Origin: an uncultured Saprospiraceae bacterium | GTDB taxonomy: Bacteria; Bacteroidota; Bacteroidia; Chitinophagales; Saprospiraceae | Direction of reading: 5' to 3' | Assembly: GCA_937969415.1 (NCBI GenBank) | Contig: CALBWK010000063.1 | Location: forward strand, 1 to 64,000 | DNA: 64,000 bases | In this document: positions 30,436-62,677 of the stretch, piece by piece | Position numbering within the stretch: the first letter of the stretch is position 1 | Layout: every line of letters starts with the position of its first letter | The notes under the pieces: generated by a model | What the model saw: the letters and a program-made list of their open reading frames with translations, nothing else | What the model was told of the DNA's origin: nothing | Database searches by the model: none | Program-made: the position numbers and the translations under genes

Positions 30436-31162
30436 TAACTATTTTCAGTTTAAAAACTTGCTTAAGCTTATCCAATAAAATAGGCCTTACTTCACCTATG
30501 GTAATCTGTTGACCCATTTCCTTTGACAATGAGGTCACAGATTTATCATTATCTGCAATACCACAGGGAATGATGTTATCAAAATGAGAAAGATCAGAAC
30601 ATATATTGAGACCAAACCCATGCAGACTAACCCATCGACTGAGGTGTACACCTATTGCGCAGATTTTTCTCATTCCCGCCGCATCTCTAATCCAGACCCC
30701 AGTATAACCAGTGACACGTACTGGGTCTAGTCCAAAATCTCTGAGAGTTAGGATAATTGCCAGCTCTACATTACTCACATATTTGTGGATATCTCTGTAC
30801 AACAACTCTAAATCAAAAATGAGATAGCCTGTAATCTGACCAGGTCCATGATAGGTGATATCACCTCCTCTATTGATATCAAATAATTCGAATCCAGCTT
30901 CTTGCAAGTGGGATTCAGACTTGATTATATTTTGCCTTTTGGCACTAGTGCCCAGCGTGTAGACAGGTAAATGTTCGCACAGGACAACATGATTTAAGAT
31001 GGATGACTTACTTTTGTTATAATTTCGTGTGGTGCTTTTCTGACGCTTCAACTGATTATGAAGTGTCATCTGCAGGTCCCATACATCTTGATAGGTGACA
31101 TTAGATATCTGATGTATCTGTGTATTAATAAAACTTTTAGTGCTTTCTTGTTTCAATTGCAT
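30428..31162 (-). CDS. lipB: lipoyl(octanoyl) transferase
   Basis: CEHLPVYTLGTSAKRQNI, FDINRGGDITYHGPGQITGYLIFDL, RKICAIGVHLSRWVSLHGFGLNICSDLSHFDNIIPCGI. Confidence 0.94.
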   Translation of the reverse strand: MQLKQESTKSFINTQIHQISNVTYQDVWDLQMTLHNQLKRQKSTTRNYNKSKSSILNHVVLCEHLPVYTLGTSAKRQNIIKSESHLQEAGFELFDINRGGDITYHGPGQITGYLIFDLELLYRDIHKYVSNVELAIILTLRDFGLDPVRVTGYTGVWIRDAAGMRKICAIGVHLSRWVSLHGFGLNICSDLSHFDNIIPCGIADNDKSVTSLSKEMGQQITIGEVRPILLDKLKQVFKLKIVNE

Positions 31163-32188
31163 ATGATGAAAACAGTAATCCTTTTTCTTTCGATTTTCGG
31201 TTTCTCTGGCGTTCTCATTTCACAAAATACTGTTCCAGATTTCACTGTTACTGATTCAGATGGAGTCGAACACTCTCTCTATGAGGATTACTTAGACAAA
31301 GGTATCACAGTTGGCATTAAATTGTTTTTTGTCAATTGTCCCCCCTGCAACGTTGATGCTCCGAAAGTGCAGACTCTCTATGAAGAATTAGGTGGAGGCC
31401 AAGCAGACGTCCAATTATTCGAACTAACAACTAGTAGTGATAACAATGCAGCAGTCAACGGCTATAAAGCTATGCACGGCCTTACTTTTCCAAGTATTAG
31501 TACAGATGGAGGTGCCTCTCAAGTTATCCAACCGTATATAAATGGAGAGTTTGGAGCTTTTTTCGGAACTCCAGGATATTTCGTTATCGCACCAGATGGA
31601 ACTGCAACCGCAACAGGTGGCGGATCTAGTTCACGTATTCCCAATTTTGATGCAGGTATTAGAGCAACTGGGGCTACAGGAGTAGTAACACAAGAGCCTG
31701 ATCCAGCGATAATTAATTTAACGATAGAAGATGCTTTTGGGTCTTCCATTCAAGATGTTGAGATTCAGCTGATTTCAGCTTCAAACCCCAATCTGGCTTA
31801 CGATGTAGATTTAGATAATCAACAGATTGTTATACAAGATTTAAATCAACAGTTTCCAGGGATAAATGATCCAATTCTTAGAATATCCAAGTCTGATGAC
31901 ATCAGAGGCAAACTTACTCCTTTGGATATTTTACTCATCCGAAAACATATATTAGGTCTCATTCCTCTTACGGATGAGGCATTGTTGATGGCTGCAGATA
32001 CAAATGGAGATGGAAATGTAAATCCTCTAGATATGCTGGTCCTACAAAAGGTGATTTTAGGTGTTTTTAGCGAGTTCCCAATACCAAGTCACCGTTTTAT
32101 TCCTAATGAATTTCCAATCCAAGTGACGCCTGGTTTGCAAGATATTGAGATAAAGGCTTCAAAAACTGGTGATCTAAACGGTTTTTAG
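31163..32188 (+). CDS. secreted thioredoxin-fold/redoxin protein with C-terminal dockerin-like domain
   Basis: MMKTVILFLSIFGFSGVLISQNTVPDFTVTDSDGVEHSL...FFVNCPPCNVDAPKVQTLYEEL; C-term LTPLDILLIRKHILGLIPLTDEALLMAADTNGDGNVNPLDMLVLQKVILGVF (two dockerin-like helices/Ca loop). Start trimmed from 31058 to 31163. Confidence 0.85.
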   Translation: MMKTVILFLSIFGFSGVLISQNTVPDFTVTDSDGVEHSLYEDYLDKGITVGIKLFFVNCPPCNVDAPKVQTLYEELGGGQADVQLFELTTSSDNNAAVNGYKAMHGLTFPSISTDGGASQVIQPYINGEFGAFFGTPGYFVIAPDGTATATGGGSSSRIPNFDAGIRATGATGVVTQEPDPAIINLTIEDAFGSSIQDVEIQLISASNPNLAYDVDLDNQQIVIQDLNQQFPGINDPILRISKSDDIRGKLTPLDILLIRKHILGLIPLTDEALLMAADTNGDGNVNPLDMLVLQKVILGVFSEFPIPSHRFIPNEFPIQVTPGLQDIEIKASKTGDLNGF

Positions 32189-32480: not shown

Positions 32481-35400
32481 ATGATGAAAATTTTCACATC
32501 TAGTGTATTGGTAGTGTTTATGAGTTTATTCATAACTATTGGCAATCTTTACAGTTTTGGACATAATGATAATTTCTGCTTTGATGCAGATGTAGCGGAA
32601 GCTCAGATGGACTTTGAGGCCATGTGTCTTACTGCTCCTTTCATTATGTGTCCATCTACTTATTTGGGTTGTCCGAATGATACTACCAACCCGGCGACAA
32701 CAGGCCAGGCAACTGCGACACCTGGAGATCCTAACTGTCCTCAACCTTCTCTAACTTTCACTGATGTCATTGTCACCAATACACCGTGCCTGAGAGTGAT
32801 TCATAGAACATGGGAAGCGGGATATACCGGTGCCGCTAACATAAAACTACATTCATCTTGCCAACAGACACTATTCTTGGAGGATACAACAGCCCCTGTT
32901 ATATCAAATTGTCCAAGCGATATGAATATTAATCTTCAAAATAACTGTGCAGGCATTGCTACATGGCCTATACCTACTGCGGCTGACGACTGTGGTATAC
33001 AATCTTTTACAACTACACACTTTAGTGGAACAGGTTTCCCAACTGGAACGACAACTGTAACCTACACAGCGACTGATAATTGTGGATTCCAATCTGTATG
33101 TTCATTTAATGTTACAGTATCAGGTTCTTGTTGTACGGGGCCTACGATTACTTGCCCAGGAAACTATGTAGCATGTGGAGGTTCTACAGTACCTAGTGTA
33201 ACAGGCGTAGCTACCGGCACTAATGCTGACCCAGCATCTTGCGGAGTTGTCAATGTACTATTTACTGACGTAGTTAACTCAACTAGTACTTGTGGTACAT
33301 CTATAACAAGAACATGGGTCGCAAGTGACGGGACTGCTTCTGCTAGTTGTGTTCAAACAATAAACACTGCAGATAACAACATTCCTGTCATATCTAATTT
33401 CCCTTCAGATATGACTTTTACTGGAAATGGAACTAACTGTTCTGTACCTGTAACTTGGTCAGAGCCTACAGCTACAGATAATTGTGGTATAGCTTCTTTT
33501 TCTTCAAACTTGCAAAGTGGAAATGTATTCAGTCAAGGTTCTACACTAGTAACATATACAGCAGTAGACAATTGTGGTAATCAAACGACTGCAGCATTTC
33601 AAGTGACAGTTAATTGCACACAACCTTGTAACACAAATCCTACTATAAACTGTCCAAGCACATATACAGCTTGTCCAGGATCTGGAGTGCCATCGCTACT
33701 AATATCAGGTACAGCTACTGCTACAACTACAGGAGGATGTACGGGTACACCAATTATTACACATACTGATGTAATCAATGGAACAGGAGGCGGAACTTGT
33801 GCAGGTTCGCAACAAATCCTAAGAACTTTCACCGCAACAGACCCTAGTAATTCTTCTTTGAGTTCTAGTTGCTCTCAAGCGATAAACTTACTTGATACAC
33901 AAGCACCTACTATAAGTGGGATGCCTAGCAATATGACAATAAATGGAAATGGTGCAGGTTGTGCAGTACCAGTAACTTGGACAGTACCTACGGCTACTGA
34001 CAATTGTGGATTGGCTTCATTGACATCCAATTTTTCTCCAGGCAACGTCTTTTCATCTGGCTCTACATTGGTAACATATACAGCAGTTGATAACTGTGGA
34101 AATGTTAATACACTTTCATTTACAATAACCGTAAACTGTATTAACCTTACTTGTAATACACCGCCATCTATCTCTTGTCCTAGTACTTATAGTGCTTGCC
34201 CGACAGGTAGTGTTCCAGGGCCGAATGTAACCGGATCTGCAACATCAATAGCAACAGGTGCTAATTGTGGTACTGCAACGATTACTTATAACGATATAAT
34301 TTCAGGATCAGGATCTTGTGCAGCATCAATGGTTGTACAGAGAACGTGGACAGCAACAGAGCCTAGCTCAGGATTAACTGCCTCATGTGTACAGATGTTG
34401 AACCTAGTTGACAATACAAATCCTTTTTTCCAAAATTTCTGTCCTAGTCCAATTACACTCTCAGGAACAGGAGCTAACTGTTCAGCAGTTGCTGTATGGA
34501 CTGCACCGACTGCTGCTGACAACTGTTCTGCAGTATCGATAAGCAGTACACACAATAGTGGTTCTAGTTTCGGACAAGGATCGACTCTAGTCACTTATAC
34601 AGCTACAGACAACTGCGGTAATAGCAGCACTTGTGCATTTAATGTAACAATCAATTGTGCTACTTGTAACACCAATCCTGTTATCTCTTGTCCGTCAAGT
34701 GTAACAGCCTGTATCGGTTCTAGCTCAAGTCCTAGTTTGACAGGAACAGCAACTGCGAGTGCTGGTGCTCATTGCCCTACACCTTCTGTAACTTTCTCAG
34801 ATTCGACAATTGGATCTGGTAGTTGTGGAGGATCAGTTATAACTAGAACATGGACAGCCTCATATGCAGGTGTGAATGGATTCTCGGCATCATGTGTACA
34901 AAGTATCAACTTAATAGATCAGACAAATCCTGTAATTACAGGATGCCCTTCTAATCTTACAGTTTCTAGTAATACAACACCTGTAACTTGGGTAGCACCA
35001 ACTGCAACTGATAATTGCAGTGTACCTACTTTAAGTACGACGCATAATTCAGGTTCGACATTCCCTCAAGGAACTACAACTGTTACATATACGGCTAACG
35101 ATGGCTGTGGTAACATCGCAACATGTTCTTTCAATGTGACGGTCGTGTTACCTCAAGGTGGTTTCGCATCATGTCCTAATGACATAGTTATAGATTGTAA
35201 TACAACAGGTGGATCAGTTGCGACTTGGTCAACACCTACATACAATGGGGCTTGTAGTTCTTGTGACGGAGGTCAATACATAGCAGGATTCATTTATATG
35301 GGTTCATTCAATGGCAGCCAGTACTACTGTTCTCTCAGCCCTGCGACTTTCCCAAGTGCAAAGTCAATTGCATCAAGTCACGGAGGATATCTTGCAGATA

Positions 35401-37205
35401 TCAATTCAGCTGCTGAAAACGCATACTTAGCAAATCAGTTACAAATTAACTCTGCATGGATAGGACTGAATGATTATGAAAATGAAGGCGATTTCACTTG
35501 GTGTAGTGGAGCTCCATTTGGCAGCTATACTAACTGGTATCCAGGACAACCAAATAACTATAACGGTAATCAAGATTACGTAGAGATGTTGGCAGATGGA
35601 ACATGGAATGATCAGTATAATAATTTCTCTCTTGAGTTTATAATGGAAATACCTTGTTCATTCATAACGCAGACACAAGGACCAGCACCTGGATCGCAAT
35701 TACAAAGTGGTACGTACCCAGTGACATATACTTTACAAGATGCTTGTGGCACATTTGCTACTTGCAACTTTACAGTAACTGTTAATTCTGGACTATCAAT
35801 TACTTGTCCGGATAACATCCATATCGATGCTACAGATCCTGCAGGTGCAGTTTGTACTTGGAATGAGCCTACAGCACATTCTTGTTGTTCTAACTGTTCT
35901 AACACAGGTGGTTCTATCCCAGGATTTATCTATATGGGCAGCCAAAACGGATCACATTATTATTGCTCACTTGCTCCTGCAAGTTGGGCTACAGCTAACC
36001 AGAATTGCATAGCCTTAGGCGGCAACCTTGCTGTTATAAATAATGCAAGTGAAAATGCATTCTTAGCCAATGGTCTTCAAGCTAATGCGGCTTGGATAGG
36101 TGCAACAGATATGAACAGTGAAGGAAACTTCCAGTGGGTAGATGGATCACCTTTTAGCTATACTAATTGGTATGTCGGTCAACCAAACAATTACAACGGT
36201 AATCAAGATCACCTTGAACTACTTAAGAGTGGAGAGTGGAATGATCAATATGGTTCTGTATCTCTAGAATACATTTTGGAAGTTTCCAATTGTATAACGA
36301 CGACGCAGACTTCAGGTCCTATCTCAGGCACTGTTTGCCCTCCAGGATCACATACAGTTAGTTACACTGTACAAGATGGTTGCGGAAACGTAGAAACTTG
36401 TTCATTTAACATTACAGTCACAGCACCAGCACCACCATCTGGTGTACACTGTCCATCAAGTGGAGCATTCTCTCATAACAGCTACATCCAGTCAGTAGGA
36501 TTTAATACAATCCACAATACTTCGGGTAACAATAATGGCTATGGAGACTTTACTAATCAGTGTACAACTGTAGAAGCAGGTTATGTCTATCCTCTACAAT
36601 TAACGCCTGGATATGGTAGTGCATCTCCGGTAAAAGTATATTGGACTTGCTGGATAGATTACAACATGGACGGAGACTTTGATGACAACTATGAGTTTGT
36701 CGCTTATGGATGTGGAGCGAAGACACTCTCTGGTTCTATCACTATACCATATGCAGTGTGGAATGGTACTACAAGAATGAGATGCATTATGAAAGTAGGT
36801 GGCTATGCTACTGACCCTTGTGCACAATACCAATACGGAGAAACAGAAGACTATTGTGTAACAATCACAGGTGCAGACATTATTAGTCAAAAAGGTGAAG
36901 ATATCGAACTGAGAAACTCTCCTTGGGCAGATGCTTTAGAGTTGAAGCCAACAGTATCTGATGACAACTATGCCAATATCTACCCTAATCCAGTTAATGA
37001 GATTATGACTCTAGAACTGGGCAATGTTGATATGCTAAAGTCAGTCGGCATCTATAGCATAGATGGTAGAAAAGTAATGACGCTTAATAATGTGAGTGAA
37101 ATTAATGAAGTGAATGTATCTGATTTGCAAGGCGGCATATATATGCTGAATGCAACATATGAAGACGGTACAGAAATCACAGAAAGAATTATTGTTCAAC
37201 ATTAA
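32481..37205 (+). CDS. large secreted multidomain protein: alternating Cys-rich/HYR modules, two C-type lectin domains, GEVED domain, T9SS type A sorting domain (putative adhesin)
   Basis: Five HYR units (TATDNCG....GSTLVTYTAVDNCGN...FTVTV), CTLDs at about 35250-35665 and 35883-36300 (WIGLNDYENEGDFTWCSG..WYPGQPNNYNGNQDYVEMLADGTWND), GEVED (CWIDYNMDGDFDDNYEF..GETEDYCVTI), C-term NIYPNPVNEIMTLELGNVDMLKSVGIYSIDGRKVM. Confidence 0.93.
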   Translation: MMKIFTSSVLVVFMSLFITIGNLYSFGHNDNFCFDADVAEAQMDFEAMCLTAPFIMCPSTYLGCPNDTTNPATTGQATATPGDPNCPQPSLTFTDVIVTNTPCLRVIHRTWEAGYTGAANIKLHSSCQQTLFLEDTTAPVISNCPSDMNINLQNNCAGIATWPIPTAADDCGIQSFTTTHFSGTGFPTGTTTVTYTATDNCGFQSVCSFNVTVSGSCCTGPTITCPGNYVACGGSTVPSVTGVATGTNADPASCGVVNVLFTDVVNSTSTCGTSITRTWVASDGTASASCVQTINTADNNIPVISNFPSDMTFTGNGTNCSVPVTWSEPTATDNCGIASFSSNLQSGNVFSQGSTLVTYTAVDNCGNQTTAAFQVTVNCTQPCNTNPTINCPSTYTACPGSGVPSLLISGTATATTTGGCTGTPIITHTDVINGTGGGTCAGSQQILRTFTATDPSNSSLSSSCSQAINLLDTQAPTISGMPSNMTINGNGAGCAVPVTWTVPTATDNCGLASLTSNFSPGNVFSSGSTLVTYTAVDNCGNVNTLSFTITVNCINLTCNTPPSISCPSTYSACPTGSVPGPNVTGSATSIATGANCGTATITYNDIISGSGSCAASMVVQRTWTATEPSSGLTASCVQMLNLVDNTNPFFQNFCPSPITLSGTGANCSAVAVWTAPTAADNCSAVSISSTHNSGSSFGQGSTLVTYTATDNCGNSSTCAFNVTINCATCNTNPVISCPSSVTACIGSSSSPSLTGTATASAGAHCPTPSVTFSDSTIGSGSCGGSVITRTWTASYAGVNGFSASCVQSINLIDQTNPVITGCPSNLTVSSNTTPVTWVAPTATDNCSVPTLSTTHNSGSTFPQGTTTVTYTANDGCGNIATCSFNVTVVLPQGGFASCPNDIVIDCNTTGGSVATWSTPTYNGACSSCDGGQYIAGFIYMGSFNGSQYYCSLSPATFPSAKSIASSHGGYLADINSAAENAYLANQLQINSAWIGLNDYENEGDFTWCSGAPFGSYTNWYPGQPNNYNGNQDYVEMLADGTWNDQYNNFSLEFIMEIPCSFITQTQGPAPGSQLQSGTYPVTYTLQDACGTFATCNFTVTVNSGLSITCPDNIHIDATDPAGAVCTWNEPTAHSCCSNCSNTGGSIPGFIYMGSQNGSHYYCSLAPASWATANQNCIALGGNLAVINNASENAFLANGLQANAAWIGATDMNSEGNFQWVDGSPFSYTNWYVGQPNNYNGNQDHLELLKSGEWNDQYGSVSLEYILEVSNCITTTQTSGPISGTVCPPGSHTVSYTVQDGCGNVETCSFNITVTAPAPPSGVHCPSSGAFSHNSYIQSVGFNTIHNTSGNNNGYGDFTNQCTTVEAGYVYPLQLTPGYGSASPVKVYWTCWIDYNMDGDFDDNYEFVAYGCGAKTLSGSITIPYAVWNGTTRMRCIMKVGGYATDPCAQYQYGETEDYCVTITGADIISQKGEDIELRNSPWADALELKPTVSDDNYANIYPNPVNEIMTLELGNVDMLKSVGIYSIDGRKVMTLNNVSEINEVNVSDLQGGIYMLNATYEDGTEITERIIVQH
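32630..35157 (+). repeat. five tandem bimodular coding repeats (Cys-rich module plus HYR module)
   Basis: Five copies of CPSxYxAC...TGxATA...C..xRTWTA....SCxQxInLxD followed by an HYR module, each about 160-170 aa. Confidence 0.8.
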
Positions 37206-57757: not shown

Positions 57758-60700
57758 CTAGTTATTTTTTTTGAGCTTAGCTATATCTTCTGACAAGGCC
57801 TCTTTGAAATCTGTGAGACTACCAAATTCTTTTCGATAGTTAAGACCTACACCATACTTAGAACCATCATCACCTAGAGAGTTTTTATCCCACTTACCGT
57901 AGGCCTTTAATTTCAATCGTCTATCTTCTGTCAGATAGAAACCTATGTTGAAATCGTGCACAACATAATTAGGTACAGTAGAAGCATTCACTTCATTGTT
58001 GATATAGCTGGTTCCGTAATCTAGCTCCCACCTATCATTCTGAAAACGCGGTTTGAGGTGAACCTCTATTTCGTCCGGAATGATCGAAGTATTGGTTGTC
58101 GGTTGTCCTGGTTGACCAGGTATTTCTTGACCGAACTGTGAGGTCTTGCCAAAAGTCAAATCAAAATCAATTCCTGAAACAAAACCATTCTCAGACAAAG
58201 CTTCTTGCAAGAAGCCAGATAGAATATGAGACAACTGATTAGAAATCATTTCACTCAAGGTATTATATCCTGTACTCGCCAAGCCACTCGCAGAGCCCAC
58301 GGCATTCCCAAAAGATGATGATGGCAAAAAACTACCAAACATAATCAAACCAGCCACTTGCTCATTTAGATCAGCCTCATTGGTCTTGAGTATCCGCATC
58401 TTACTATCTGCTAAATTTTTAAGATTACCTTGAAGCTCAGGAAATGCAATATCAAAATCTACAGTAGGCTTATAGAGAGTGCCTGTCAGATTCATCATCA
58501 AATCTACATCCGTACGTTGTCTTGCTTCACTTTGATCTTGTGGTCTATTTAAGTATTCTGCTAAGAATACATTGGTCGGAGCTTTGAGCTTTTCGTAATT
58601 GGCTTTCAGGTTGATATTAGCATTAATAGGGTCACCAGTCCAAGTTATTTGCCCTCCTTTCTCAACTGTAAATGGCTTGGATATAACGCCTCCAAAATAG
58701 GTAAAGAGATACTCTCCTCTGTCTAAAACATACTCCCCAAAAATATTAAAGTCTCCCTCTCTAGAAATTACAACTCGCATATTGCCATCACCGTGGCCAG
58801 TCATAATATCATTGATGTTTTCATTGAATATGACATTAATCTCTGCTTCAGGCGTTATACTCAGATTCATACGAACATCTACACCTTCTAAGGTCGGAAT
58901 CTCGAAAGAACTTGTATCACTCTTGAAATCAAAAACTGTATTTCTATCGACAACTTTTATTAAACTCTGATCATAATCTTCAGAAACAGATCCAACAGGA
59001 ATATTAACTACAGTTCCTAATCCAGAGGATGCTTCTACTACTATATCTGTACTAGAAAATGGCCCAGAAAAATCAACAACAATCTCCCCTATCCCTTGGC
59101 CATAATACGAGGGGTTATCTTCCTTTTCGGTGTCCAAGGCAAGAAATCTTGGTGAACTCATCTGCAAGTCCGAGGTAAAATCCGTAAACAAACTGTGATT
59201 CAATTTTCCTACTATGCTTGCCTCATTACGGTATTTATCATAGAGTTTGCCACCAGTCAGATCAATGACCTTATCTGTAACAATAAATTTTTCTTCTCCA
59301 AAATACAGTTCCGCCCCGAGATAATCGATAGTTGTAGTACCTCCAGTAACTAGACCTACCCCATCAAGTTTTATATCATCAATAGTACCAGACAATACTG
59401 CATCTACATCTGCCCCGCCACCTGTATTAGAAATACCATCATCAATAATAAATTCGAATGTATTCATTGCCAGGTTCCTTGCTGTTATTACTCCTGATAT
59501 ATCCTTTGTTTGTTTCTTATACTGAAAATCCTTAACGTGCAGCAAAAGACCATCATAAGCTCTATTAAGTTTCAAATCAACTTTTACATCCTGTCCATCA
59601 TCTTCGGCACTTAAGGTGAGGGCGCCGTAATCAACATCATTAAGATAAAACTCTGGGAGGTTAACCTTGACTATAGTTGGTGAAGCATCAAATATATTTT
59701 CTTTGAGAAGAACCACATTCCCTTCACCTGTAAAGTCAATTTTATCGTAATCTATCAGCGTATTTATCAATTCAAAATCAAACTTATCTAGGTCGACAAG
59801 GATTCCTTTCTCATTAACATCACTGATAATTATAGATCTATAATTATCGCGAATGACAAAGCCATTGATATCAATAGTTTTATTTCCTATAACAACTTCA
59901 TTAGCAGGACTGACGATCCATCTACTACTTAGCATATCGATATAGCCATCTGCAATCCTGGCCACTATCTCATCGTCACGGGGATATGCCTGCACTACAA
60001 TATCTATTTTCTCCAAAGAATCTAATACTTCATCAGAAGCTACCCTTAGTTCAAGTTGATCACCATTAGCTCGAAGACGCATAGCCAGTGGGCTAAAAGC
60101 TGTCTTGCCTATTTTAAGATCATTTACCTGCAAATTAAAGAATGACTTCTTATAGACTTCGTCTAGCCCTAGCAGCATATTCCCAACCTGGATGTTATCA
60201 TACTCTCCCTTATCCAATGACAATTCGAGCTTGTACGTCTCAGTTTCTGTGTTCACCTTACCATCAGCAGTGAGGCCTTGAATACTAGCTGAGGATAGAT
60301 TGGCTAATTCTAAGAAATTCTGAGAATCCTTGATCTCAAACTTAAATTCGAAATCTTGTTGAGGTATGGACATATTAGAACGACGAATAGACAGTTTTTT
60401 TGACCATTCTGGATGAGACTTAACCATATGTCTCTTAAAAGCTTCTGGCAAGTGCTGGAAATCAAATTGACCACCAATAGATCCAGATATAACATCAGAA
60501 GTTACTTGGACATTTCGTCTATTATTTATTTCAGGTGAGGAAGTTGCGAAGAGATTATTTATTTCATAAGGCTTTCCCTTAAAATTAAAAGCTAGATGAT
60601 TTACCGTACTTTCTCCAATAAGGTCAGAACTTTTGGTGCCTTTGAGAACAAGTTCAATGTCACCTTCTATATCACTAAAATCCTTACTAAGATTTAACGC

Positions 60701-62677
60701 CAATAAATCTATGTTGTCAATTTGAGCCTTAAAGTCAGAATCTATATTTTTTGTCTCAGGGTCGATAAAAATAACTCCATCAAAATCTAACTTCGCATTA
60801 GGATCTGAAGACGTCAACTTACCGTTGAATCTATTCTGCTCAAAGACTCCATTGAGATCAATACCAGAATATGTATAGCCTTTAAAATCAAAAGATTGTA
60901 ACTCGGCACTCAAATCTGTCAACAAACTTTGACTAGTCAATCCACGACCGTCACGTATTTCTGCTTGAAACGTGGCCATACCAAGGTCTTGATTTCCTGT
61001 CCAACTCCTCAAATCAAAATTCTCTAAGGCCATCTCACCAGAGTATTCGGCATTATCCATACCCTTTTTGATATCTAATCTTGTATCCAAAATAATTTTC
61101 CCTAAAGGCGAATCAAGAGTACCATAGACTACAAAGTCCTTAAAGAAACCATCTATATCTCCAGAAAAAACTATAGGATCTAGTTTATAAAATTGCTCTG
61201 GTGGATTAAAGTCAGGAATGATCAACTTCAGATTAGCTAGACTAGTTTGAAACTTCTCTACATTCAGATTCACAAGAGCTGACTCAGATCTTGTGAGTGC
61301 ATAAGTACTCAAGGTCCCTTTCATTGTAATCAAATCTGATAACGACAGCGTCAATCCGTCCGTATCCAAATTATCTATCGTACCTAGAACTGAACCCGAC
61401 AATCTCAACCACTTATTTTTATTTTTATTAATAAATGGAGATCCAGCAAGTTCTGGAAAGAAATATAGCAAGTCTTGAAAAGCCAGCTTTGTATCTTGTA
61501 AATCTGCCTCAATCTCTATCAACTGAGCAAATTTCTTAAATGAATTCAAATCTTCGTAACTAAAAGTAAGTTGATCACCCAATCTACTTCTATCGGTATG
61601 TAAAGCAAAGTTGTCGAGGTGGACTAGCTCATTGTTGACTAAAAGCTTATCTACATTGAGGCTATTAAGTTCAAATCCATTAGCCTCTTTTAAATTCAAA
61701 GACTTAATTGAAGACTCTATTGTCATAGGGGTCTTATAGACAGTTTCAGTTGCTTTAATATTAAAATCTGAAACCTCTAGATGATTGACATCAAATCCAG
61801 CTACTTTCTTGTTAGGAGCTTTCCTCCAATTATCAAGCTTAAATTGGCCATTGCTGATCTCTACATTATACAGTTTCAAATAGAATGGATCACTTTCCGC
61901 TTTAGTAATCTTTTCTTCTCTTTGGGAATCCGTATTGTCAACTTTTTCTGAGTTTACGTTTACCACTTTGTTTTCAAGAATAGCAATAGGGTTTGAGAGC
62001 ATTAATTCCCTGAATACAAACCGCCTACTATTCAAATCCAGAGTATCTATCACTAGAGTTCCTTCTTTTAGCGAAAGATCCAAGAAGTCGCCCTTAGCTT
62101 TATCCTGTTTAGAAATAAGAACATTATCGAAATAGATTTTTTCCAGACTCAGTTGAAAAGATTTGCCTTGACTGGTAGATTCTGCAGGCGCACCTTGAAA
62201 CTTAGACAAAACCTTTTCAAAACCAGAAAGAGATTCATTTTCTCCCGTCTTAAGTATTAAGCGTGCATCCACTAGGAATACCTCATTGAGCGAAATAGAG
62301 TTGTTGATCAGGCTTGTCACATTCTCTCTCAACGTACTGGAGAATCTCCCTATATAAGCTAGGGTATCACTATGGTCATCTGGGTTAGACAGATAAACAT
62401 CTTCTAGAAACAATCCTTTGAATATTGAAAAATCTACTTCACCGACCTCAGCTTTAGCTTGTGTCTTTTCAGAAATGGAATTTGCAGCTTTATCCACCAG
62501 CCAGTTTTGTACCGGCTTGATATGCAAGAGTAGTGGAATTAAGATAATGATACAGAGCAAAATAAAGAGTGTCCACATCAAGAGTCTGAGTCCTGATCTG
62601 CTTTTCTTTTTAGTTGCGGTCACCTTCTTTTCTTCTTGCATCTGCTGTCTGTCGTCTACCCTGTTATGGGCACACAT
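57758..62677 (-). CDS. translocation/assembly module TamB-like protein (DUF490)
   Basis: Single N-terminal TM, AsmA-like N-terminus, long beta-helical middle, C-terminal DUF490 (GEYLFTYFGGVISKPFTVEKGGQITWTGDPINANINLKANYE...VDLMMNLTGTLYKPTVDFDI). Confidence 0.92.
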   Translation of the reverse strand: MCAHNRVDDRQQMQEEKKVTATKKKSRSGLRLLMWTLFILLCIIILIPLLLHIKPVQNWLVDKAANSISEKTQAKAEVGEVDFSIFKGLFLEDVYLSNPDDHSDTLAYIGRFSSTLRENVTSLINNSISLNEVFLVDARLILKTGENESLSGFEKVLSKFQGAPAESTSQGKSFQLSLEKIYFDNVLISKQDKAKGDFLDLSLKEGTLVIDTLDLNSRRFVFRELMLSNPIAILENKVVNVNSEKVDNTDSQREEKITKAESDPFYLKLYNVEISNGQFKLDNWRKAPNKKVAGFDVNHLEVSDFNIKATETVYKTPMTIESSIKSLNLKEANGFELNSLNVDKLLVNNELVHLDNFALHTDRSRLGDQLTFSYEDLNSFKKFAQLIEIEADLQDTKLAFQDLLYFFPELAGSPFINKNKNKWLRLSGSVLGTIDNLDTDGLTLSLSDLITMKGTLSTYALTRSESALVNLNVEKFQTSLANLKLIIPDFNPPEQFYKLDPIVFSGDIDGFFKDFVVYGTLDSPLGKIILDTRLDIKKGMDNAEYSGEMALENFDLRSWTGNQDLGMATFQAEIRDGRGLTSQSLLTDLSAELQSFDFKGYTYSGIDLNGVFEQNRFNGKLTSSDPNAKLDFDGVIFIDPETKNIDSDFKAQIDNIDLLALNLSKDFSDIEGDIELVLKGTKSSDLIGESTVNHLAFNFKGKPYEINNLFATSSPEINNRRNVQVTSDVISGSIGGQFDFQHLPEAFKRHMVKSHPEWSKKLSIRRSNMSIPQQDFEFKFEIKDSQNFLELANLSSASIQGLTADGKVNTETETYKLELSLDKGEYDNIQVGNMLLGLDEVYKKSFFNLQVNDLKIGKTAFSPLAMRLRANGDQLELRVASDEVLDSLEKIDIVVQAYPRDDEIVARIADGYIDMLSSRWIVSPANEVVIGNKTIDINGFVIRDNYRSIIISDVNEKGILVDLDKFDFELINTLIDYDKIDFTGEGNVVLLKENIFDASPTIVKVNLPEFYLNDVDYGALTLSAEDDGQDVKVDLKLNRAYDGLLLHVKDFQYKKQTKDISGVITARNLAMNTFEFIIDDGISNTGGGADVDAVLSGTIDDIKLDGVGLVTGGTTTIDYLGAELYFGEEKFIVTDKVIDLTGGKLYDKYRNEASIVGKLNHSLFTDFTSDLQMSSPRFLALDTEKEDNPSYYGQGIGEIVVDFSGPFSSTDIVVEASSGLGTVVNIPVGSVSEDYDQSLIKVVDRNTVFDFKSDTSSFEIPTLEGVDVRMNLSITPEAEINVIFNENINDIMTGHGDGNMRVVISREGDFNIFGEYVLDRGEYLFTYFGGVISKPFTVEKGGQITWTGDPINANINLKANYEKLKAPTNVFLAEYLNRPQDQSEARQRTDVDLMMNLTGTLYKPTVDFDIAFPELQGNLKNLADSKMRILKTNEADLNEQVAGLIMFGSFLPSSSFGNAVGSASGLASTGYNTLSEMISNQLSHILSGFLQEALSENGFVSGIDFDLTFGKTSQFGQEIPGQPGQPTTNTSIIPDEIEVHLKPRFQNDRWELDYGTSYINNEVNASTVPNYVVHDFNIGFYLTEDRRLKLKAYGKWDKNSLGDDGSKYGVGLNYRKEFGSLTDFKEALSEDIAKLKKNN

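Follow-up and report, generated by a model that had tools for sequence, protein, structure and literature searches.

The locus analysed here, an open reading frame in a window of 64,000 nucleotides (the whole stretch of DNA that was analysed) from an uncultured Saprospiraceae bacterium, raises the question of whether a complete C-type lectin domain (CTLD) can be carried inside a domain of another family, the HYR domain, and how such a protein would be built and used. The initial annotation had proposed that the sixth and seventh HYR units of the encoded 1574-aa protein are interrupted by lectin-like sequence, and the peptides which it quoted were located at aa 895-928, 1063-1101, 1107-1139 and 1275-1313. 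The nested arrangement is real: profile searches, splicing, nearly empty sister domains and a structure model all agree on it. We assign a probability of roughly 0.85 to the reading that the product is a T9SS-exported adhesin-like protein, in which two HYRs serve as split display frames for CTLDs.

Pfam models recognised in this protein seven HYR stretches, two Lectin_C stretches, a GEVED domain and a T9SS tail (Table 1). The tail identifies it as a T9SS cargo (Por_Secre_tail, E 4e-11; TIGR04183, 42.9 bits against a cut-off of 23), and a gene for the SprA translocon is encoded in the same genome. No RTX family match was found in the protein with Pfam and TIGR profiles, which sets it apart from type I-secreted RTX adhesins. 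We propose that it is exported by the T9SS as an adhesin-like protein, either attached to the surface or secreted. Between the intact HYRs (33123-34928), a Cys-rich HYR-like unit alternates with them, the pattern repeating about every 170 aa. Elsewhere in the window, the upstream reading frame (31058-32188) encodes a thioredoxin-like (Redoxin/AhpC-TSA) domain together with a dockerin-type domain, and a TamB-like protein of 1639 aa (PF04357, E 3e-37) is encoded on the reverse strand at 57758-62677.

Table 1. Features of the 1574-aa protein and their positions in the window
Feature	Residues (aa)	Position	Strand	Basis
ORF, 1574-aa T9SS-type HYR/CTLD protein		32481..37205	+	
Intact HYR 1	139-214	32895..33122	+	local HYR profile
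Intact HYR 2	302-379	33384..33617	+	local HYR profile
Intact HYR 3	476-553	33906..34139	+	local HYR profile
Intact HYR 4	648-726	34422..34658	+	local HYR profile
Intact HYR 5	817-888	34929..35144	+	local HYR profile
Split HYR 6, N-terminal half, ends at Cys928	893-928	35157..35264	+	profiles, splicing
CTLD cargo 1 (Lectin_C match 35343-35642)	929-1058	35265..35654	+	Pfam
Cys1059, proposed disulfide partner of Cys928 (35262-35264)	1059	35655..35657	+	flanking-Cys co-occurrence
Split HYR 6, C-terminal half	1060-1103	35658..35789	+	profiles, splicing
Split HYR 7, N-terminal half, ends at Cys1139	1104-1139	35790..35897	+	profiles, splicing
CTLD cargo 2 (Lectin_C match 35979-36275)	1140-1270	35898..36290	+	Pfam
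Cys1271, proposed disulfide partner of Cys1139 (35895-35897)	1271	36291..36293	+	flanking-Cys co-occurrence
Split HYR 7, C-terminal half	1272-1315	36294..36425	+	profiles, splicing
GEVED domain	1387-1461	36639..36863	+	Pfam
T9SS type A sorting domain	1500-1572	36978..37196	+	Pfam, TIGR04183

Evidence for the split comes from a local HYR profile of 78 positions, stronger than the Pfam model and derived from 175 uninterrupted HYRs, taken from this protein and from related loci; the five intact HYRs match it with 94-108 bits. HYR matches divide around the CTLD, and with this profile both halves were found: aa 895-927 (model 3-36) and 1059-1102 (model 34-77) in unit 6, aa 1108-1148 (model 5-46) and 1269-1314 (model 32-77) in unit 7, the N-terminal halves having E-values of about 3e-6. 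When the halves were joined, their scores added up, from 21.9 and 41.0 bits to 61.6 in unit 6 and from 18.8 and 40.2 bits to 58.5 in unit 7, while controls with a shuffled N-terminal half reached 44 bits at most. Such additivity was found in 12 of 13 cases, which cover one, two or three inserted CTLDs as well as unrelated domains. The Pfam HYR model behaved similarly, as in the unspliced units it covers the C-terminal halves only (model 44-81 and 45-81), and after removal of the insert its match grows to 10-81 and 8-81 of 81 positions with a gain of 6-7 bits, so that the spliced units 6 and 7 are full-length HYR domains (PF02494; E 5e-9 and 6e-9). In each unit a discontinuous Ig-like domain therefore surrounds a whole inserted domain.

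The failure of Pfam to match the N-terminal halves alone, with only the C-terminal halves being recognised, is what one would expect if the flanks were separate small or degenerate domains, with a decayed HYR before the CTLD and another partial Ig domain behind it. We regard this explanation as very improbable, as it leaves unexplained why the spliced score equals the sum of the halves, why invariant residues are retained in both of them, and why the halves are complementary at one shared position, near model position 35, in about 60 listed nested units (loci that were picked by a nested profile, so that this count is not an unbiased one). The split HYR was located less exactly by the initial annotation, which placed the insertion at the loop carrying DNCG...GS.F. 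The DNC part of this assignment holds, since the break falls right after the Cys, between model positions 35 and 36; the other part does not, since the break precedes the strand which leads to the SG.F turn.

In AlphaFold2 models, the check proposed at the outset, the segments on either side of the insert have their strands in the same order as the intact neighbouring HYR. The model of aa 798-1318 (29 aligned sequences) had a pLDDT of 83.5, and that of a single nested unit (49 sequences) a pLDDT of 87.8 and a pTM of 0.69. In the former, intact HYR 5 consists of strands 21-23, 29-31, 44-46, 53-56, 67-76 and 82-91, and split HYR 6 of strands 98-100 and 105-108, a short third strand, the CTLD at 140-261, and strands 264-269, 280-289 and 295-305, which places the insert between the third and fourth strands. 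A predicted contact of the two HYR halves is supported by this strand order, by the confidence of the models and by the profile evidence.

Both inserts are C-type lectin domains (PF00059) by profile and by fold, as had been supposed. Lectin_C matched them with E-values of 9e-16 and 4e-19, and Foldseek matched many carbohydrate-recognition domains (CRDs); fold searches of the PDB returned MBP, Endo180, the mannose receptor and tandem-CTLD receptors, and the CTLD superimposed on 1hup with an rmsd of 1.4 Å at 29% identity. In profile searches of PDB sequences, matches were confined to the lectin part of the nested unit. The HYR-nested CTLDs thus share with the animal CRDs (MBP, Endo180, mannose receptor, langerin) the fold and the WND/xPN loop, and differ from them in the replacement of two Ca-site Glu residues by Gln and in the Ig-like host around the domain.

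This replacement weakens the claim of Ca-dependent glycan binding made in the initial annotation. Of the five canonical ligand positions of Ca site 2, two are occupied by Gln instead of Glu, which makes Ca-dependent binding uncertain, and neither CTLD of the protein has the canonical sugar site (E-x-N / E / N-D). The residues concerned are Q1023, N1025, Q1031, N1043 and D1044 in cargo 1 and Q1234, N1236, Q1242, N1254 and D1255 in cargo 2, which in MBP numbering we take to be Q185 P N187 ... Q193 ... W N205 D206. Exactly Q, N, Q, N, D is found in 59 of 61 CTLDs of tandem units, and E, N, E, N, D is retained in many CTLDs that share an HYR with other cargo and in others across the order, those of L068 and L069 being examples of this canonical form; in a kinship-corrected test of these positions there were too few independent changes on the tree. 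It is conceivable, on account of the two Gln residues and of the persistence of the Glu-containing form in related CTLDs, that the Q-N-Q-N-D domains bind no Ca and are not sugar receptors at all, acting rather in protein-protein contacts or as structural modules, although we hold this only as a tentative alternative. The near-invariance of all five residues speaks against it, as it indicates a site under selection and not a decaying one, and so do REG-family CTLDs with EPN/QPD/QPN motifs, which are described as binding carbohydrate independently of calcium (PMC12293564).

The Cys residues that flank the insert point to a further element of the design. Of 100 units with a single CTLD, 85 had the two of them, 14 had neither and one was discordant, which suggests a neck stapled by the disulfides C928-C1059 and C1139-C1271. 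Only about 5-6 changes of each Cys were counted on the tree, and a kinship-corrected test of the association was not significant, with too few independent changes; the co-occurrence is hence consistent with a staple rather than independent proof of it.

The arrangement is not confined to one gene. Two others in the same genome encode proteins of 3141 aa (C33), with one nested CTLD-in-HYR unit, and of 1028 aa (C60), with two, and within the order at least four families have the arrangement. Most genomes of the genus gave full-length matches to the nested profile, as did other families (f1, f2, f13, f21) in the same order. When public genomes were scanned, 30 loci were retrieved, whose titles were all Saprospiraceae, Saprospirales or Bacteroidota, and in a wider set 111 CTLDs were classed as nested. 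Among 396 genomes across the phylum, with few candidates scored in each, full-length nested matches were found in the source genome only, the others having CTLDs without HYR flanks. In the C33 gene, one HYR (L018) carries a long Gly/Thr/Ser-rich insertion in an early loop (GGGGGTGSGTGSGTPSGGG).

The same HYR loop also holds other contents. One HYR contains three CTLDs (L052, aa 1580-2096), those of L141 and L143 contain two, and in L142 (aa 440-991) and L145 (aa 458-1125) an unnamed domain, about 180 aa long, is accommodated together with two CTLDs, in the latter case with a further stretch, so that the gaps reach about 480 and 600 aa. In L161 of another genome (G029; aa 390-610) the slot is filled by an unrelated 138-aa domain without a Pfam match, the HYR halves scoring 33 and 46 bits apart and 82 bits spliced; related units that retain the HYR C-terminal half are present in other Saprospiraceae genera (L167, L168, L169, L171, L173, L174). 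A proprotein-convertase P-domain in L162 of G029 (aa 764-891), at first sight the cargo of an HYR-like domain, was rejected as such, as splicing produced no rise in HYR score (12.3 to 11.6 bits). One locus (L066) has a non-nested CTLD beside a nested one.

In L040, L044 and L047 the nested unit is followed by a sister HYR, which in the first two is nearly empty, with a short loop that keeps the insert-flanking cysteines (SCCSAC-TDPNS-CVTITQTEG in L040). Such a Cys cluster occurs in only 3 of 422 uninterrupted HYRs, and its rarity fits a loss of the CTLD from these sisters, the alternative being a state preceding the insertion. CTLDs are also found within a second, distantly HYR-like Ig host in two further genes of the source genome (C164 and C16; L020 and L021), and L019 contains this host in uninterrupted form. 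Its homology to HYR was weak, with an hhalign probability of 24% over the last two strands, and we therefore treat it as distinct. Its CTLDs form one group of nine (support 93), and the strand following DDC precedes the insert here instead of coming behind it; this different loop suggests a separate insertion.

Another claim of the initial annotation was that the nested unit had been duplicated in tandem. In trees of 33 genes, each with two nested units, this is upheld for the HYR frames, where first- and second-copy types separate (3 label changes; one clade of first copies accepted, p 0.57), but not for the CTLDs, which have another history (14 label changes; first-copy monophyly rejected, log-likelihood 127 lower, p-AU 0.0005), so simple copying of one whole unit does not apply. 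Because frames sort by position and CTLDs do not, the best reading, which we hold with moderate confidence, is that cargo moved or was homogenised between frames long ago. A possible, though somewhat doubtful, alternative ascribes the conflict to convergent selection on CTLD sequence or to tree error. The frame alignment is short (90 columns), and single-clade tests with it rejected nothing; moreover, same-codon use is no higher in paired CTLDs (0.50) than in frames (0.49), giving no general sign of recent gene conversion, which we rejected on this ground. On the other hand, first-copy monophyly is rejected by one data set and accepted by the other, and each rejects the other's best tree, a result that is partly expected in whole-tree comparisons.

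Under the reading of HYRs as split display frames, folding of the HYR would begin with three strands, the chain would exit at the loop that follows the DNC motif, a complete CTLD, its termini close together, would fold outside, and the chain would then re-enter and complete the same HYR, with the disulfide probably stapling the neck. The frame would thereby keep the Ig-like chain continuous and project the lectin to the side, its binding face pointing outward, presumably for adhesion to glycan. Lectin display on an HYR stalk, as envisaged in the initial annotation, is plausible; the nested pair lies towards the C-terminus, adjoining the GEVED and T9SS sorting domains, and, should attachment take place at the sorting domain, would be close to the anchor end.

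Lectin-like and Ig-like domains are also combined at the C-terminal tips of the bacterial adhesins intimin and invasin. There the tip domain is appended end to end, whereas the CTLD described here is inserted. Intimin_C has been called a distant relative of C-type lectins (PMC8286594). The closest precedent is found in split Ig-like domains of RTX adhesins, such as FrhA of Vibrio cholerae, AhLap of Aeromonas hydrophila and MpIBP, where such splits have been said to mark ligand-binding domains (PMC10865825, PMC12077191). Common to both are a discontinuous Ig-like host with a complete inserted domain (ligand-binding in RTX adhesins, predicted to be so here), tandem Ig-like domains making up much of the remainder and, as we infer for our protein, side-by-side termini of the inserted domain and its projection from the adhesin axis. 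The differences concern the host (BIg-like versus HYR), the position of the split (after one short N-terminal strand in FrhA, near the middle, at model position 35 of 78, in HYR), export (type I with RTX repeats versus T9SS) and the cargo, which in RTX adhesins includes CBM, PA14, peptide-binding, RTX-roll and vWFA domains and in HYR comprises CTLDs and unnamed domains. In text searches, neither PMC10865825 nor PMC12077191 was found to mention C-type lectins, nor the latter HYR. HycP of Clostridium cellulolyticum, an HYR (PF02494) protein with 23 hyaline repeats, resembles ours as a large surface-type protein with tandem HYR arrays, and the abstract on it mentions no HYR insert, in contrast to the nested CTLDs (PMC3723904). 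No description of CTLD-in-HYR nesting or of HYR in Saprospiraceae was found among open-licence PMC papers, a scope which makes this absence weak evidence.

Our findings extend the split Ig design to the HYR family, to another phylum and to another secretion system, in a version with a fixed insertion point, empty forms and cargo of two or more unrelated kinds. As relatives fill one loop with one to three CTLDs or with unrelated domains, HYR seems to be a plug-in display frame. Whether across Saprospirales it is a general port, with one fixed loop, interchangeable cargo (one to three CTLDs, the unnamed 138-aa domain, multi-domain stretches of up to about 600 aa) and cargo moving between frames that keep their lineage, is a proposition to which we give even odds; if true, binding specificity could be swapped without breaking the Ig stalk. 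Given the shared design, half-HYR matches in annotation can be used to search the surface proteins of Bacteroidota for binding domains that have gone unrecognised, and the HYR frame offers a natural scaffold for domain display. The idea that adhesin specificity evolves through cargo swaps within fixed Ig frames is thereby made testable.
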